Assembly: GCA_001769655.1 (NCBI GenBank) | Contig: MEPC01000019.1 | Span: 1-64,000 of the forward strand | DNA from: Bacteroidetes bacterium RIFCSPLOWO2_12_FULL_37_12 | Lineage (GTDB): Bacteria > Bacteroidota > Bacteroidia > 2-12-FULL-37-12 | Length of the DNA: 64,000 bases | Direction: 5' to 3' | Part shown: one piece after another, positions 23,202 to 38,272 of the stretch | Layout: the number at the start of each line of letters is the position of its first letter | How positions within the stretch are numbered: the first letter of the stretch is position 1 | Translations under genes and position numbers: made by a program | Notes under the pieces: model-generated | Told to the model about the DNA's origin: nothing | What the model saw: only the letters and a program-made list of their open reading frames with translations | Databases searched by the model: none

Positions 23202-23846
23202 TTAAATGTTAGTGGTAGTTTGTTTGGACTTTATATCTGTCTGATATTTTATTTCAATAAAGTTTTTGTAATTGTCAACATAAAACTGATAAACATCGTC
23301 TATACCTGTCAAAAATGTGTCTTTAGTTAACGCTCCGAAAAGATAATTATTTTCACAAAGTTCATTTCGGTTGGATTCCTTGTCCTTTTGATACTGATTT
23401 TTATTTTCATCTCTATTTTTTTGTTTAATTTTTATTTTGTCAAACACGAGGGAAATGGTAAAGTCAAGTTCTGCGAGTGTTTGTTTTTTGAGCAAAGTAA
23501 TTTTAAAATTTTCTGGTACTGTGTCTATGTAACGAAGGGAATAACAAGCGTCCAGACGATGAATAAATTCTTTGTTAAGTTTTTTATAAAGTGATATGTC
23601 AAAATTTTTTATTGAAGGAAGAAAATTTTTAATACTATGAGTATGTTTAATCGTGTCTCCCTTAAACATCAAAATAGCTTTAAAATATTTTTCAATAGAT
23701 GTATTTGCTAAAATAGCTCCTTGAAGAATTAAATTATGATTAAGAAGAGCCCTTGAAGCAAGATAATCGTCATAAGCATTTTTCAAAAACCCCAATAATT
23801 TCAGTCCGTCTTGATGAGTAATACTTTTTGTCCTGATTGATGTCAT
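23202..23846 (-). CDS. HEPN-domain-like protein
   Basis: A 214-residue cytoplasmic protein starts at ATG 23844-23846, with no signal peptide. Residues about 20-75 (NAYDDYLASRALLNHNLILQ, GAILANTSIEKYFKAILMFK, KHTHSIKNFL) resemble HEPN four-helix domains, in which a helix carrying an Ala/Ser-x-EKxLKA-like motif packs before a TH-x-I/L segment. The catalytic RNase motif Rx4-6H of toxin HEPNs is not clearly present, so it may be a non-catalytic or substrate-binding HEPN. Residues about 140-165 are Lys/Asn/Glu-rich. No MNT nucleotidyltransferase partner lies beside it, so a HEPN-MNT toxin pair is not supported. Confidence 0.6.
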   Translation of the reverse strand: MTSIRTKSITHQDGLKLLGFLKNAYDDYLASRALLNHNLILQGAILANTSIEKYFKAILMFKGDTIKHTHSIKNFLPSIKNFDISLYKKLNKEFIHRLDACYSLRYIDTVPENFKITLLKKQTLAELDFTISLVFDKIKIKQKNRDENKNQYQKDKESNRNELCENNYLFGALTKDTFLTGIDDVYQFYVDNYKNFIEIKYQTDIKSKQTTTNI

Positions 23847-26782: not shown

Positions 26783-27901
26783 TCAATCTTCCTCATCAGT
26801 TTCTTCGTAGTTGAACTCCACTTTGCTTTGTGTTACAATCTCATCAAGAATTTTGGTGCGATAACCTTGTTTGACTGCATCATTAAACCTGTCATGAAGA
26901 GTTGGAATGTTTATCACTTCCTCGATGCAGTTCATATATTTGTCAACGATGGCTTTGATTGAATACGTTTTGCTGGCGTTAACTCTGATTTTATTCAGAA
27001 GGTCTTTTGTCGGTTCGTCTGATTTGATTACAAATGTTATTGGATATTTCTGAATCTTATCAATGTCAAGAAAATATTTTTTGAAATCCAAAGTTTCTGT
27101 TACTTGAAAAAATCTGCCAAGTGGTTTCATAACAAAATCAATTCCTCCGTCATTTGCATTTGTTCTGCCTGTCTTGTAAAGTTTCAGATTCTCTTTGTTG
27201 AGTTTATCCATTTCAAATCCCCAAATAATTTGCTGGTCGTGATAATAAAATTTGAGAATGGAATAACTCACGATTTCAAAAAGTCGTGCATCAACATTTG
27301 GTGCAAGTAAACCAATTACATACTCCTCAATTTTCTTGGGAGTTGTTTTACCAATCTTCTGAAGTTTTTCGCAAGATTTTACGAAACGCTGAAAAGCATC
27401 CTGCTTTGTTTTTGCATACTCATCAATGATTTCAATGATAACTTTTGCGATATTAAAGTTTGCTTTACCAACTTTAATTTTCAAAAGATTTTCATTTATC
27501 CAATAGCGATTGGTTTCCATGTTCCGAAGAATAGGAATGAATTCTGAACTTGGAAAATATTTTTGAAACTCAGAATTCATTCTGTTATTCAACGCATGGT
27601 TTTGTAATTTACTTCCAAAAGGTAATTCCCTTTGTCTTGCGAAAAGTTTGTTGAATAAAGCTCCTTTATACTTTGAGTAATCTCCTTTCTTGTCAAAGCT
27701 GTTAGCGATGTAATCTTCAATAATTACATAGATGGCGTAAAGGTTGGCGAAACTGGAACGGGCTTTTGATCCCTTATTTGCAGAACGGGTTTTCTCATTG
27801 ATATATTGAATGAGTTGGCTCTTTTCAAAAATATCATCAGCGCCTTTTCCAAAGTGTTTTCCTAAAACAGATTTAATGTTTGTTGTGAATATATTTTCCA
27901 T
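26783..27901 (-). CDS. Type II restriction endonuclease, partner of the 27873-28760 methylase
   Basis: ATG 27899-27901 (MENIFTTNIKS) gives 372 residues; an in-frame start four codons upstream is possible. It overlaps the end of the methylase gene by about 29 bases, the tight coupling usual for restriction-modification pairs. The region NDGGIDFVMKPLGRFFQVTE (about residues 250-270) looks like a PD-(D/E)xK nuclease core: Asp in GGID, then a beta strand ending Q-V-T in place of E-x-K. By coupling to a YhdJ-like methylase it is expected to cut ATGCAT (inference; the target of this pair is untested). Cytoplasmic. Confidence 0.75.
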   Translation of the reverse strand: MENIFTTNIKSVLGKHFGKGADDIFEKSQLIQYINEKTRSANKGSKARSSFANLYAIYVIIEDYIANSFDKKGDYSKYKGALFNKLFARQRELPFGSKLQNHALNNRMNSEFQKYFPSSEFIPILRNMETNRYWINENLLKIKVGKANFNIAKVIIEIIDEYAKTKQDAFQRFVKSCEKLQKIGKTTPKKIEEYVIGLLAPNVDARLFEIVSYSILKFYYHDQQIIWGFEMDKLNKENLKLYKTGRTNANDGGIDFVMKPLGRFFQVTETLDFKKYFLDIDKIQKYPITFVIKSDEPTKDLLNKIRVNASKTYSIKAIVDKYMNCIEEVINIPTLHDRFNDAVKQGYRTKILDEIVTQSKVEFNYEETDEED

Positions 27902-28760
27902 GTGTCTCTTCAAATAATTTTAAATTGTTGGCAGTAGCCAATTTTACAGTTTCAAACGTGCGGATTTCCTTTTGCAATTTTTCACCTTTGAATTCTTTGG
28001 CTAATTGCAATCTGCGTAATCCGATTTTCACATACTCGTCTTGTAACTCTATGCCAATGGAATTTCTACCAAGTTCTTTTGCAACAAAACAAGTTGTAAA
28101 TGTTCCCGAAAAAGGATCAACAACCAAATCACCAACATTGGAACTTGCTTTAATAATTCTTTCAAGTAATGCAATTGGTTTTTGTGTCGGATGGTTTTCG
28201 TATTCGTCCATGCGATAACGCACTCTTGCATACTCCCAAACATTTCCTGGAACTTTTTCTGAATTGTAAACTGTCGGGATTGTTTTTCGGTAGTCAATAA
28301 GTTTTCGCTTTGCTCCTGTTTTTGCTTCAACTAAAATATCTTCTGTATTAAAAGTGTATTTGTCTTTGTCTTTTACGCAAAACAAAATAGGTTCATACAT
28401 AGAACCGTAATATTTTTTTGCCTGCACTCCAGAACTGTCGTAATACCAAACCAATCGTGAAAGTATGTTCAATCTTTTGCGAAGGTAGATGTCAAAGAAG
28501 GGCATGAATTGTGTTGCAGTCATTACATAAAAGCTGCCGTTGGATTTGAGCTTCTGAACGCACAAGTCCAACCACTTGTAACACCACTCCAAATAATCTT
28601 CTTCGGTTGCCCATCTGTCCTTGTGCCCATTGAAATTTTTCCCTATATTATATGGTGGGTCGGCAAAAATTAAATCAACGGAATTGTTTGCAAGAGTTGT
28701 CAATGCTTGCAAAGCTTCGCCATGAATGATTTTATGCCTGTCGTTACCGAATATTTCCAT
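27873..28760 (-). CDS. Adenine-specific DNA methyltransferase, YhdJ-like (beta class)
   Basis: ATG 28758-28760 gives 295 residues. The longer frame start at 28787 is a TTG lying inside a -7 promoter box. Motif IV DPPYNIGK (residues 34-41) comes before the AdoMet motif DPFSGTFTT, the beta-class order. Long blocks match E. coli YhdJ: YDSSGVQAKKYYGSMYEPIL, VEAKTGAKRKLIDYRK, VPGNVWEYARVRYRMDEYEN and HPTQKPIALLERII. YhdJ methylates ATGCAT, so the same target is likely here. It is upstream of and overlaps the endonuclease gene, so it protects host DNA from that enzyme. Confidence 0.92.
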   Translation of the reverse strand: MEIFGNDRHKIIHGEALQALTTLANNSVDLIFADPPYNIGKNFNGHKDRWATEEDYLEWCYKWLDLCVQKLKSNGSFYVMTATQFMPFFDIYLRKRLNILSRLVWYYDSSGVQAKKYYGSMYEPILFCVKDKDKYTFNTEDILVEAKTGAKRKLIDYRKTIPTVYNSEKVPGNVWEYARVRYRMDEYENHPTQKPIALLERIIKASSNVGDLVVDPFSGTFTTCFVAKELGRNSIGIELQDEYVKIGLRRLQLAKEFKGEKLQKEIRTFETVKLATANNLKLFEETHGKYIHNKH

Positions 28761-28784
28761 TTTCAAATCGTGTAAAAGCCGTTT

Positions 28785-28792
28785 CAAAGATA
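28785..28792 (-). promoter_or_regulatory. -7 box for the restriction-modification operon
   Basis: The minus strand reads TATCTTTG, an exact TAnnTTTG match, 24 bases before the methylase ATG at 28760. It supports that ATG and a short leader. No -33 TTTG at standard spacing. Confidence 0.5.
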
Positions 28793-32493: not shown

Positions 32494-32576
32494 TTCTATA
32501 CCGTAATACCTCTATACCCCTATATCCCTATACCTTATGCCCCTATACCTCTATTCCCCTATACCCCCATCCCCTT
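32494..32576. repeat. Degenerate 8-bp tandem repeat (CCCTATAC type)
   Basis: About nine units of CCCTATAC or variants (CTCTATAC, CCCTATAT, CTCTATTC), with one 7-base unit. It spans the gap between the TonB-domain gene and the epimerase-like gene and enters the last codons of the latter, encoding its GMGV end. Confidence 0.75.
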
Positions 32577-33500
32577 ATAAGCCATCGTCCTGTCATTTCT
32601 TCGCTTTAATTCATTTGCGTATTCCATTCCAACGGTGTTCTTGTTTGCTTTCAGCCAATCTGTTAGTTTGGTTTTACCTGCTGGCGGTGAATCGGTATAA
32701 AGCAAATCTGCTTTTAATCCTTTTATTTCTTCACGGGTTACTAAAAAATCACCTTGAATGGTTCCGACAATTTTCGAAAGCCAATAACCTATTTCATCTG
32801 ATATTGAAATGGTTTTGCGTTCTTTCCCTAATATTATTTTTGATATCGTTTTCACTAATTCTTTGTATGAAAATGTCTCAGGTCCTATAGCATCAATGAC
32901 GGCATTTTCGTTTTTTTCTCCTTGTGCAATTGCCAGATCGGCATAGTCCTCAACAAAAATAGGTTGCAGGCGATATTGTCCATCACCAAAGATACCAAAA
33001 ATTGGAAACTTACGAATCATCCACGCAATATTATTAATCAAAATATCTTCCTGTCCGAAAATTATAGCAGGACGCAAAATGGTGTATGAAATGCCTGAAT
33101 TAATGAGCGCTGATTCAAGAATACCTTTTCCTGCAAAGTATTCCAACTTTGAATTTTTATCAGGATTGGTTATGCTGGTATGCACTATTCTTTTTACACC
33201 CGCTTTTATTGCCGCTTCAAAAAGTTTAAGCGTATTGTCAACGGCTTCCGAGTGTTGAAATGTCTTATAATTAAAGCGAACCCAGTAAGTATTATATAGT
33301 ACCGATACCCCTTCTAATTCCGTTATCATTTTTTTGGGATTATCAAAATGATACGGCGAAACAATTATTTTATTTTGAAATTCGTTCTTCCGGTTGATGG
33401 AATTTGTGAGGGTTTTAACCAAAATATTTTTAGCTAACAATCGTTGAGCAATGTATTTTCCGGAAAATCCAAATGCTCCTGTTACAAGTTGTGTTTCCAT
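32559..33500 (-). CDS. NAD(P)-binding epimerase/NmrA-like protein
   Basis: 313 residues, ATG 33498-33500. Extended SDR fold: the N-terminal dinucleotide motif is GAFGFSGKYIAQ (residues 8-19), followed by VSVLYNTYWVRFN, VKRIVHTSITNP, SYTILRPAIIFG and VEDYADLAI. The classic YxxxK is not obvious (KLEYFAGKGILE is the nearest match), as in atypical SDRs such as the NDUFA9-like group. It may act on a membrane quinone or sugar substrate; this is unproven. The stop lies inside a tandem repeat. Cytoplasmic. Confidence 0.8.
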   Translation of the reverse strand: METQLVTGAFGFSGKYIAQRLLAKNILVKTLTNSINRKNEFQNKIIVSPYHFDNPKKMITELEGVSVLYNTYWVRFNYKTFQHSEAVDNTLKLFEAAIKAGVKRIVHTSITNPDKNSKLEYFAGKGILESALINSGISYTILRPAIIFGQEDILINNIAWMIRKFPIFGIFGDGQYRLQPIFVEDYADLAIAQGEKNENAVIDAIGPETFSYKELVKTISKIILGKERKTISISDEIGYWLSKIVGTIQGDFLVTREEIKGLKADLLYTDSPPAGKTKLTDWLKANKNTVGMEYANELKRRNDRTMAYKGMGV

Positions 33501-34582: not shown

Positions 34583-35731
34583 CTATTTCCCCTGAATTCC
34601 CGGAGATGCATAAAAATCGTTTACTGAATTTGTATAAATGTAATAGTCCCTTTTATGTATAATTTGAAAAATTGTCGGCTGGGTTACTCCAATAGGAAGT
34701 AACATTAAATGACTTTTTCCATTTATTTTTTTTGAATCGTTATTTGTTCCTTCCCTGTTGTCAAATGAAATCACAAAATGGTATAGATAGGGATTAATCC
34801 AGTCAATATAATGTTTTTTTGATAAATTGGATGAGGTTCTTATTTCAAGTTCGTTGTAATTCTCTGCAATTGCTTTTTGAAATTCCACTGCATTGAGCGG
34901 AATGTTATTCAGCACCGGCATAGCATCCCATTGTCCGTCAAGTAAAACCCATTTTTTTAAATCGTTCAGAAAAACTTCTAATAAAACATGACCGGCTCCA
35001 TATTGCCTTGTTTCAACATCTTTCGTTTGTAATCCCAACGTCCTTGCTTTTAACCCAATGGCATTTAAACAAGCAGTGCCTACAATTCCATATTCAACAC
35101 AACGAAAATTTTTTCCTTCCTTAACTTCTTCAAGAATGGAAATAGCGTCATTTTTTTTTGGCTCATTATTACCGTTATGTTGCCACCGGTTATGCACCCA
35201 TTGAAGTATTTTCAATGCTTTTTCCGTATCTGTTTTTGTATCTATAATCAAACTGTCAATTGGATATTTTGAACGGAGAAGGTTTAAGTATTCATTAGGG
35301 TTGTTGTGTTCATGCCAAAATTGCAGTTTCTCATCTTTTGATTTTGTGTCAAACTGTAAAACCGAAAAATTTGGTTTAATACCTTTTACTACTGTCAGAG
35401 CGTAAGCCGTATCGTTAAGGCAAACGTAGAATTTATGAGTCAGTTCCGGTGCCAGTTTAAAAACAATGCTATCTTTGCCGGTATAAAAAGCAAATTCTTC
35501 GCTGTTGGAATGACACGAAATAAGTAAGCTGTCAAATTCAATTTGAGGGGAAATTGTCCAACTACCTTTTACCCAGTCATTACCTATTCTATAATCGGAT
35601 TTTGCAGAATTTGCATTAATCAGTGGAAATCCATTATAGGTTGTTTGTCCGAATACGGCGAGTGTAAATATATATAAGGACAGGGTTGTTGTAATTTTTT
35701 TTATTTGTCCCCATCTATTATTATGTTTCAT
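34583..35731 (-). CDS. Secreted transglutaminase-like protein
   Basis: I place the start at ATG 35729-35731 (MKHNNRWGQIKK), which begins a signal peptide (LSLYIFTLAVFGQ). The longer frame to 35818 lacks one. 382 residues. A transglutaminase-like core carries the expected triad: Cys211 (FRCVEYG), His248 (GAGHVLLEV) and Asp265 (VLLDGQWD). The N-terminal 150 residues look beta-rich. Such proteins act as cysteine proteases, amidases or cross-linkers in the periplasm or outside; the substrate is unknown. No operon partner. Confidence 0.82.
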   Translation of the reverse strand: MKHNNRWGQIKKITTTLSLYIFTLAVFGQTTYNGFPLINANSAKSDYRIGNDWVKGSWTISPQIEFDSLLISCHSNSEEFAFYTGKDSIVFKLAPELTHKFYVCLNDTAYALTVVKGIKPNFSVLQFDTKSKDEKLQFWHEHNNPNEYLNLLRSKYPIDSLIIDTKTDTEKALKILQWVHNRWQHNGNNEPKKNDAISILEEVKEGKNFRCVEYGIVGTACLNAIGLKARTLGLQTKDVETRQYGAGHVLLEVFLNDLKKWVLLDGQWDAMPVLNNIPLNAVEFQKAIAENYNELEIRTSSNLSKKHYIDWINPYLYHFVISFDNREGTNNDSKKINGKSHLMLLPIGVTQPTIFQIIHKRDYYIYTNSVNDFYASPGIQGK

Positions 35732-36117
35732 AGTTTCGGTTTGTATAAAAAATTCTTTCAAAGAACAAAAATGGGATTTATTTTTCGATAAAAAAAATAA
35801 AAAATTCTTATGCTCCATGCCTGCTTTTTAACTCCTTTGCTATAATTCGGTAGCCAGATAATCATAAGGATAAATAACTTTCACCTAAAGTTGATACATT
35901 GAAAAATGACAAAAAATCTGTTTTTCTGTAAACTTTTATTTTACACTTGTAGAATTTAATTTTACACAAAGACGTAATAATCCCATCCTCATGAAAAATC
36001 ATTTATCTATTCACTATCTTTGCTTTTTGCACACATAACAAGAAGCAATACTTCGTTATTTACAAAGTATTTGCTCCTGTTTATGTGCAAGGAATTTTTT
36101 CAACCAGGCGGTTGCTA
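35732..36117. other. 386-bp intergenic region
   Basis: No gene of protein character. On the plus strand TATCTTTG at 36015-36022 matches the -7 consensus but drives only into the antisense of the repeat-peptide gene, so its meaning is unclear. It may be chance, since the word occurs about once per 2 kb per strand in DNA of this composition. Confidence 0.4.
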
Positions 36118-36498
36118 TTATATTCCGTCGGTTTGGTCAAACACGGTAGAGGGTTTTGCCCTTACGCCATCCGTTTGGTCAAACATGGTGGAAGGTTTTG
36201 CTCTCACTCCATCCGTCTGATCAAACATGGTTGAAGGATTTGCTCTCACGCCATCCGTTTGGTCAAACATGGTTGAGGGTTTTGCCCTTACTCCATCCGT
36301 TTGGTCAAACATGGTAGAAGGTTTACTTTGCATGAGGTCAAAAGTTTCTTTGAACTGTGGATTTGATTCAAGAAACCTCGTCGCATCGGGACCCGAAAGT
36401 TTTTCAAATAATTCTTTTTCGGTCAGGCCCAAGCCCGAAAATCCCGGCATCTGAAATATATTCAGCGCCAGGAGCATCGAAATGATGATTGATGACAT
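36118..36498 (-). CDS. Small secreted protein built of five 14-residue repeats
   Basis: 126 residues, ATG 36496-36498. A hydrophobic N-terminus (MSSIIISMLLALNIFQM) looks like a signal peptide. A roughly 35-residue leader follows (LTEKELFEKLSGPDATRFLE). Five copies of KPSTMFDQTDGVRA (14 residues, 42 bp) then run to the stop, the last ending FDQTDGI. Between copies nearly every base change is synonymous in this frame (GTA/GTG, AGG/AGA, CCC/CCT, GAC/GAT, CAA/CAG, GGA/GGC); only K to N and M to V change residues. The opposite strand is broken by TGA in one repeat. So the peptide is under selection. No modifying enzyme, protease or transporter is adjacent. It could be a multi-core peptide precursor, an adhesive repeat or a binding array; function unknown. 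Confidence 0.8.
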   Translation of the reverse strand: MSSIIISMLLALNIFQMPGFSGLGLTEKELFEKLSGPDATRFLESNPQFKETFDLMQSKPSTMFDQTDGVRAKPSTMFDQTDGVRANPSTMFDQTDGVRAKPSTMFDQTDGVRAKPSTVFDQTDGI

Positions 36499-36664: not shown

Positions 36665-38224
36665 ATGAAGGATCTTGCCAAACTGATAAAATCCCTTAAC
36701 CGGGTTGAAGTGTCTGCTTTACGCCATTTTTACGTTAAGAAAACAAGGAAAAAAGTTGCCAAACGGTTAAAACTTTTTAATTTGCTTAGAAAAAACCCAC
36801 AGGCAAATGAAGAAAAAATCTCAAAAGTTTTTTTTGGAGCAATTCATGACACCCGGCTGGATGTATTAAAATATCAATTAATACATGACGTATTAGATAC
36901 ACTTCTTATCAACTATTCATCTTCTAAGTATAAAACACCGTATTTACAGGCATCTGCTGAATGTAGAAAACTAATCCTGCAAGGAGATATCCTGTTAAAA
37001 AGAGGTTTTCTAACTTTGGGATTGGAATTTATGGAAAAAGCATCACTCAAAGCGCAAGAGTTCGATATCCCTTTACTTCAGCTTCAAGCCGATGAGATTT
37101 TATTTAACCATAAGCTGGCACGCGATGGTGAATCGCATCTGAAGGATTATTTTATTAAAATTAAAGATTCGCTGGAAAAAGCAAGATGTATTTTTCTGGC
37201 GCAGGAATACCTGGCTGAAATTGATAGCCAGAATGCTTTTCATTCCAACGTAAGAAACCGTTTTTGTAAAAAGATATATGACTCTATCGGCGAGCTAAAC
37301 ACATTTTATCTATTAACCCGTTCCCCGAATGTGGGCTATTATTTTTATTACACTTCCATCGTCGGGTATCGTTTATGCAAAGAATATCTGAAAGCAAAAT
37401 CAGCCGCTGAATTGCTTTTTGCACTTCTGCAAAAAGAGAAGGCAATATACTCTGAAATAAGAATGGGCATGTTGCTGTTGCAAAAAAGCACTATCGCCAT
37501 TCATCTCAAGGAATACACAAGGGCTGTTGAACTTTCCAAGGAAGGTATTTCCCTCTTTAATAAAGATTCGTTTAATGAGCTGAGGGCGATGGAAATTTTA
37601 TTTGAAGCCCTGTTTCATGCCAAACAATACGGAGAAGCAGAACGACTGATTCAAGCTGCACAAAAACATTCCCGGTATAATTATTCACGATTCAGTGAAA
37701 AAAAATGGAATTTCTATCGTAACAATTTACTCTTTGCCACACGGCGATATGAAGAAATGAATTTTGACCGTCCTACGATTGACGAATTAATGAAAGATAA
37801 ATCAGGATTTTACCCTGGATGTAAAATCTTAGAAATCATGTCATTCATCGAACGGAAAGAATTTAATCAGATAGACGACAAACTGTTTGCTCTCGAAAAA
37901 ATTCTCTTGCGCCAAAGCGACATTCCCATGAATAAAATCATACAAAACGGCTATAATCCGGATTTAAAAAGAATAATTGTTATTTTTAATTTGTTGAAAT
38001 TTCTGATTAATAAAAATTATAATGCTTTACAGCTCAAATCACATTATGATTTCATAAGAACTCTGGAAGAACGTAATCAATTTTTTAATCTTCTTAAAAA
38101 TGGACAAGATGATTATGAGTGGAATCCCATCGGATACGAATACATACGTTTTGATGAGTGGTTGAAACAAAAGGCGGAGGAGCAGGGTGTTGAAGAGAAA
38201 AAGGGCATGCAGGTAAATGGTTAG
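36665..38224 (+). CDS. Large alpha-helical protein of unknown function
   Basis: 519 residues, ATG 36665. It has no signal peptide or membrane helix. The first 55 residues are very basic (KKTRKKVAKRLKLFNLLRKN). The rest is alpha-helical and TPR-like but without canonical TPR spacing (YTRAVELSKEGISLFNKDSF, EALFHAKQYGEAERLIQAAQ). Proteins of this length and build are common in Bacteroidota without a known role. The 3' end runs into an 8-bp tandem repeat. It is convergent with the acetyltransferase gene. Confidence 0.75.
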   Translation: MKDLAKLIKSLNRVEVSALRHFYVKKTRKKVAKRLKLFNLLRKNPQANEEKISKVFFGAIHDTRLDVLKYQLIHDVLDTLLINYSSSKYKTPYLQASAECRKLILQGDILLKRGFLTLGLEFMEKASLKAQEFDIPLLQLQADEILFNHKLARDGESHLKDYFIKIKDSLEKARCIFLAQEYLAEIDSQNAFHSNVRNRFCKKIYDSIGELNTFYLLTRSPNVGYYFYYTSIVGYRLCKEYLKAKSAAELLFALLQKEKAIYSEIRMGMLLLQKSTIAIHLKEYTRAVELSKEGISLFNKDSFNELRAMEILFEALFHAKQYGEAERLIQAAQKHSRYNYSRFSEKKWNFYRNNLLFATRRYEEMNFDRPTIDELMKDKSGFYPGCKILEIMSFIERKEFNQIDDKLFALEKILLRQSDIPMNKIIQNGYNPDLKRIIVIFNLLKFLINKNYNALQLKSHYDFIRTLEERNQFFNLLKNGQDDYEWNPIGYEYIRFDEWLKQKAEEQGVEEKKGMQVNG

Positions 38225-38272
38225 ATAGTTAAATGGTTAGATGGTTGGATGGTTGGATGGTTAAATGGTTAG
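38217..38272. repeat. 8-bp tandem repeat (ATGGTTAG type), seven units
   Basis: ATGGTTAG, ATAGTTAA, ATGGTTAG, ATGGTTGG, ATGGTTGG, ATGGTTAA, ATGGTTAG. It covers the stop codon of the 36665 gene and lies between two convergent genes. It shares its period, and partly its sequence, with 30579-30610. Confidence 0.85.

Follow-up and report, generated by a model that had tools for sequence, protein, structure and literature searches.

The repeat ORF and its surroundings

The window analysed here, a stretch of 64,000 nucleotides taken as a whole, carries on its minus strand an open reading frame (ORF) for 126 amino acids that ends in an array of 42-bp units encoding KPSTMFDQTDGVRA. The first-pass annotation had placed this ORF exactly, in coordinates and strand, and its description of a five-unit array with 14-residue repeats also held. 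Units 1–4 are full (42 bp, 14 residues), and the partial unit 5 consists of 12 codons followed by TAA. Tandem Repeats Finder places the array at 36131..36324, with a period of 42, 4.6 copies and no indels. The features of the locus are as follows.

36118..36498, minus strand: orphan repeat protein ORF, 126 amino acids, stop codon included; coordinates and strand verified exact
36325..36498, minus strand: N-terminal part, residues 1–58, a hydrophobic stretch (4–15) followed by short helices, from hydropathy and AlphaFold2
36283..36324, minus strand: repeat unit 1, KPSTMFDQTDGVRA
36241..36282, minus strand: repeat unit 2, KPSTMFDQTDGVRA
36199..36240, minus strand: repeat unit 3, NPSTMFDQTDGVRA
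36157..36198, minus strand: repeat unit 4, KPSTMFDQTDGVRA
36121..36156, minus strand: partial repeat unit 5, KPSTVFDQTDGI, then stop
36027..36090, minus strand: 64-nt single-copy hairpin, 27 nt past the ORF stop codon, fold z-score –6.5
34583..35731, minus strand: next same-strand gene, transglutaminase-superfamily protein with a signal-like N-terminus, PF01841 (Transglut_core), E = 1.7e-8
36665..38224, plus strand: divergent neighbour, 519 amino acids, of a widespread uncharacterised family of about 500 amino acids, with matches in 25 of 99 genomes sampled

The hairpin is a possible transcript end, and its minus strand has no U-run. No second copy was found in the genome. Comparison with Rfam gave only sub-threshold scores of miRNA type, which we took as chance. 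No repeat ORF was found beside relatives of the divergent 519-residue gene, including its true paralogue (G000:C9); a neighbour at another locus (L024) was rejected as the paralogue. A general link between ORFs of about 500 amino acids and short arrays was dropped because the ORFs proved unrelated.

The first-pass annotation had recognised no adjacent modifying enzyme. The Transglut_core match of the gene that follows on the same strand corrects this, and cysteine, histidine and aspartate are found at the expected places by eye. Each of the five repeat units retains one glutamine despite variation in its codon, and four of the five contain one lysine. The repeat protein might therefore be a substrate of its neighbour, cross-linked through the glutamine and lysine of the units. 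However, none of the five relatives of the enzyme examined (of eight in all) adjoins a repeat peptide, so adjacency with the ORF may mean nothing and is not conserved; a strong hairpin also separates the two genes, and the bacterial proteins of this superfamily are probably proteases for the most part. A link between the two genes is speculative, and we consider the substrate relationship extremely unlikely. If it were true, the locus would make a bacterial cross-linked extracellular polymer of lysine- and glutamine-bearing 14-residue repeats for the transglutaminase-like protein, an outcome to which we give very little credence.

Other features of the window and genome were recorded. Window positions 26783–28787 and 23202–23846 contain a DNA methylase (N6_N4_Mtase, E = 2.5e-59), an overlapping 376-residue ORF that follows it and matches no known family, and a HEPN-domain protein close by; the 376-residue ORF could be the restriction partner of the methylase. 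Arrays with periods of 7 or 8 bp account for 38 of the 61 tandem arrays in 501 kb of the genome and are mostly intergenic, for example GGGGTATA, TTAAATGG and ATTTTCT; short-period loci include window positions 32506–32579 and 38214–38272, and L048–L067. Similar intergenic heptamer repeats (TAACTGA) have been reported from Beggiatoaceae, cyanobacteria and five Bacteroidetes (PMC4679880).

Silent variation between the repeat units

Twelve columns vary among the units; third codon positions account for ten of them and first positions for the other two (binomial p = 5e-4). A minimal-change count infers 13 base changes between units, of which 10 are silent in the minus frame. When 13 changes were placed at random, keeping the observed mix of transitions and transversions, a mean of 3.4 were synonymous and 10 were reached in none of 20,000 draws. 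Both tests assume independent changes, so their p-values are approximate. The mainly synonymous third-position variation noted at first pass was thus confirmed. Its statement that K/N and M/V were the only replacements needs amending: both are present, together with a third, V/I, in the last unit.

Third positions of the opposite-strand frame encoding ALTPSVWSNMVEGF coincide with those of the minus frame, and this frame is equally quiet, with 10 synonymous changes. It is broken by a base change that creates a stop codon in one unit; the first-pass annotation had noted an in-frame stop on this strand. The minus frame stays open, with no internal stop or frameshift, across the 58 codons outside the repeats. 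With neighbouring genes as the reference, codon-usage scoring ranked it best of the six frames in both parts: over the repeats it scored 14.3 and the second-best frame 1.0, and over the 58-codon N-terminus the two scores were –4.1 and –8.7. Since 16% of wrong-frame pieces match the N-terminal score, that score by itself is no proof of coding. GC content at third positions is 0.48 in the N-terminus and 0.44 in the repeats, higher than the 0.32 of neighbouring genes.

Arrays in related genomes provided a comparison. Some of these genomes contain many 21- and 42-bp arrays, and the variable sites of the scorable ones span all three phases, with counts such as [5,3,4], [4,4,6], [11,11,12] and [5,3,6]; [0,10,5] is among the most skewed. 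Within the bounds given by Tandem Repeats Finder the ORF array has a phase count of [0,1,8], a bias unlike that of the 15 other indel-free arrays scored. This contrast sets it apart from an ordinary intergenic array.

Because 21- and 42-bp arrays are common in some relatives and frequently leave a frame open, and because the ORF has no homologue, we considered that it might be a non-coding tandem array, like the intergenic arrays of those relatives, left open in one frame by chance. The near confinement of variation to one codon phase argues against this, as do the 58 open non-repeat codons and the finding that no other array of three or more copies in 501 kb of its own genome has a multiple of 21 as its period. 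We therefore regard a non-coding origin as distinctly unlikely. The synonymous bias, seen in five units of a single genome, is best read as selection on the protein of the minus strand. The coding claim is well supported and the ORF very probably specifies a real protein, in agreement with the earlier preference for a functional peptide over a simple DNA repeat; the control intergenic arrays lack the phase bias.

In one genome of the same class (G063), 23 of the 27 tandem arrays of at least three copies in 400 kb repeat at multiples of 21 bp; those sampled (L109–L128) are mostly intergenic, with units unrelated in sequence and no codon phase. Periods of 21, 42, 63 and 84 make up most arrays of at least three copies in some same-class genomes, further examples being L025, L129–L137 (G006), L138–L142 (G123), L147 and L148. 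Such genomes surfaced through a 42-bp query, and most of the G063 arrays are independent of that match. Multiple-of-21 arrays were few in a thin sample that took about 340 kb from 20 other genomes. Twenty-one base pairs correspond to two turns of B-DNA; a literature search on 21- and 42-bp arrays found nothing useful. Another 14-residue repeat ORF (RSLEAYP...) occupies the minus strand of the first 265 bases of L108, at the margin of this G063 locus; it overlaps a 42-bp array without codon-phase bias [5,5,4]. In a further genome of the phylum, two 42-bp arrays (L092, 1459–1586 and 2079–2291) fall within a 1121-residue frame that appears to encode a DNA methyltransferase.

N-terminus, possible export and relatives

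Residues 4–15 are hydrophobic, with a hydropathy of 2.63 over 12 residues. The first lysine or arginine does not occur before residue 28, and inspection of the N-terminus for cleavage sites revealed no A-x-A/Q site and no clear signal peptidase or lipobox site. A crude rule selected 40 N-termini resembling signal peptides from 501 kb of the same genome; 34 of them have a lysine or arginine within residues 2–8 and six do not, so that its absence is compatible with export. An alternative start at Met17 would drop the hydrophobic stretch. A single-sequence AlphaFold2 model, of low confidence overall (mean pLDDT 53.6), predicts helices at residues 3–16, 27–35, 39–45 and 47–58 (pLDDT about 50–76) and no secondary structure in the repeats (pLDDT 42–46). 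Searches of Pfam and NCBIfam for a type IX sorting domain (Por_Secre_tail or CHU_C) found none on the ORF, the C-terminus of which is repeat. The signal-like N-terminus proposed at first pass stands as regards the hydrophobic stretch, but is not matched by early basic residues or a clear cleavage site. From the sequence, export of the product is plausible, and secretion a possibility.

The first-pass annotation had also suggested a multi-copy peptide precursor. A leader-like segment does precede near-identical repeats whose residues are strongly kept, and the protein might accordingly be cut into 14-residue peptides, as a signal peptide or RiPP-like multi-core. However, no processing motif was recognised, the last unit is partial, and Pfam scans of 15 neighbouring proteins of the window detected neither a RiPP maturation enzyme nor a dedicated peptidase-transporter. 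Positive evidence for such a precursor did not emerge, and we judge it very unlikely.

Searches with the full protein in GTDB r220 contigs, IMG/VR, plasmids, phages, 149 related genomes and 396 genomes of the phylum turned up no credible relative, nor did a search with the N-terminus plus two repeats in 395 genomes of the class; these genome sets overlap and cover over 600 genomes of the phylum. An alignment of two repeat regions scanned against GTDB r220 contigs gave no match, and Pfam, NCBIfam, PHROGs and PDB gave no credible one. Weak matches that were inspected were unrelated repeat arrays; the best of them (L005, 36%) was rejected because it lies in an intergenic 42-bp array without phase bias. 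Among the genomes searched, the closest relative of the source genome is no nearer than class. As far as these collections go, the predicted protein is an orphan present in one genome so far, consistent with the first-pass failure to recognise a family.

The genome encodes a second repeat protein (G000:C38:86078), in which a signal peptide and a type IX sorting domain of the CHU_C kind (E = 1.2e-20) accompany the repeats PTVITDNIDGRASE / PSVITDNVDGKEA / PSVITDNVDGKEI. Both proteins contain tandem P-S-x-x-x-D-x-x-D-G repeats, and 6 of 13 positions are identical between their units (shuffle p = 0.002). Each is the other's first match after itself, with E-values (6.6e-4 and 1.4e-3) that are inflated by the repeats. 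An intergenic array of another genome (NPPVCMTHTDGSEA), itself chosen by the search, scored p = 0.0015 against the ORF unit in the same shuffle test, and the similarity is therefore suggestive, no more. On that footing the type IX protein may be the nearest analogue of the ORF, which differs from it in lacking a sorting domain and any clear cleavage site. The ORF could be a remnant or offshoot of such a protein that has lost its sorting domain; the weak reciprocal similarity would fit, as would an NPQ-containing stretch that by eye precedes the repeats in both. Against this, we noticed no trace of a CHU_C domain downstream of the ORF, and the frame is intact. We consider this origin unlikely.

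Interpretation and comparison with known systems

The explanation we favour, although we put it at only about an even chance, is a small protein specific to its lineage, in which a hydrophobic N-terminus of short helices precedes a disordered tail made of nearly five 14-residue motif copies. Most likely it is an orphan repeat protein of an ordinary kind, its tail floppy and possibly surface-exposed. This explanation draws on the third-position and synonymous bias absent from control arrays, on a best-scoring frame that runs open through repeat and non-repeat parts, on the low-confidence model with its disordered repeats and helical N-terminus, and on the similar PSVITDNVDGKEA repeats of an exported type IX cargo of the same genome. 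Counted against it are the absence of orthologues, of a clear signal peptidase or lipobox site and of a sorting domain, together with the weak N-terminal codon score, the raised third-position GC, the low pLDDT and the possible Met17 start. The N-terminus would insert in or cross the membrane. On the cell surface or in the periplasm, the tail would show the PSTMFDQTDG motif several times and might serve there as a linker or binding site, flexible and multivalent. The most likely role would be that of a small protein, either exported or membrane-associated, whose flexible tail is multivalent.

At this locus, silent drift from unit to unit cleanly distinguishes a real small protein, not recognisable by other means, from the intergenic arrays that fill some relatives, and the same test could serve for other orphan repeat ORFs.

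Three known systems invite comparison, the type IX protein described above being one. A stretch of the ORF (LFEKLSGPDATRFLESNPQF..MQSKPS) resembles part of Stress-induced-phosphoprotein 1, but the match to the STI1/Hop DP-like helical domain is not significant (E = 1.5–1.8). The closest published principle is that of Borg elements, in which in-frame tandem repeats are kept as amino-acid repeats (aaTR) that are mostly disordered and enriched in extracellular and membrane proteins (PMC9879509). Borg repeat proteins belong to archaeal extrachromosomal elements, whereas the ORF holds one array and lies in a bacterial genome with many short arrays of different periods, and its units show visible silent drift. 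The ORF shares with the Borg proteins, which are often small or extracellular, near-perfect amino-acid repeats encoded by in-frame DNA repeats and kept at the amino-acid level; the disorder of aaTR repeats may be a further common trait, as predicted for the ORF by the low-confidence model.
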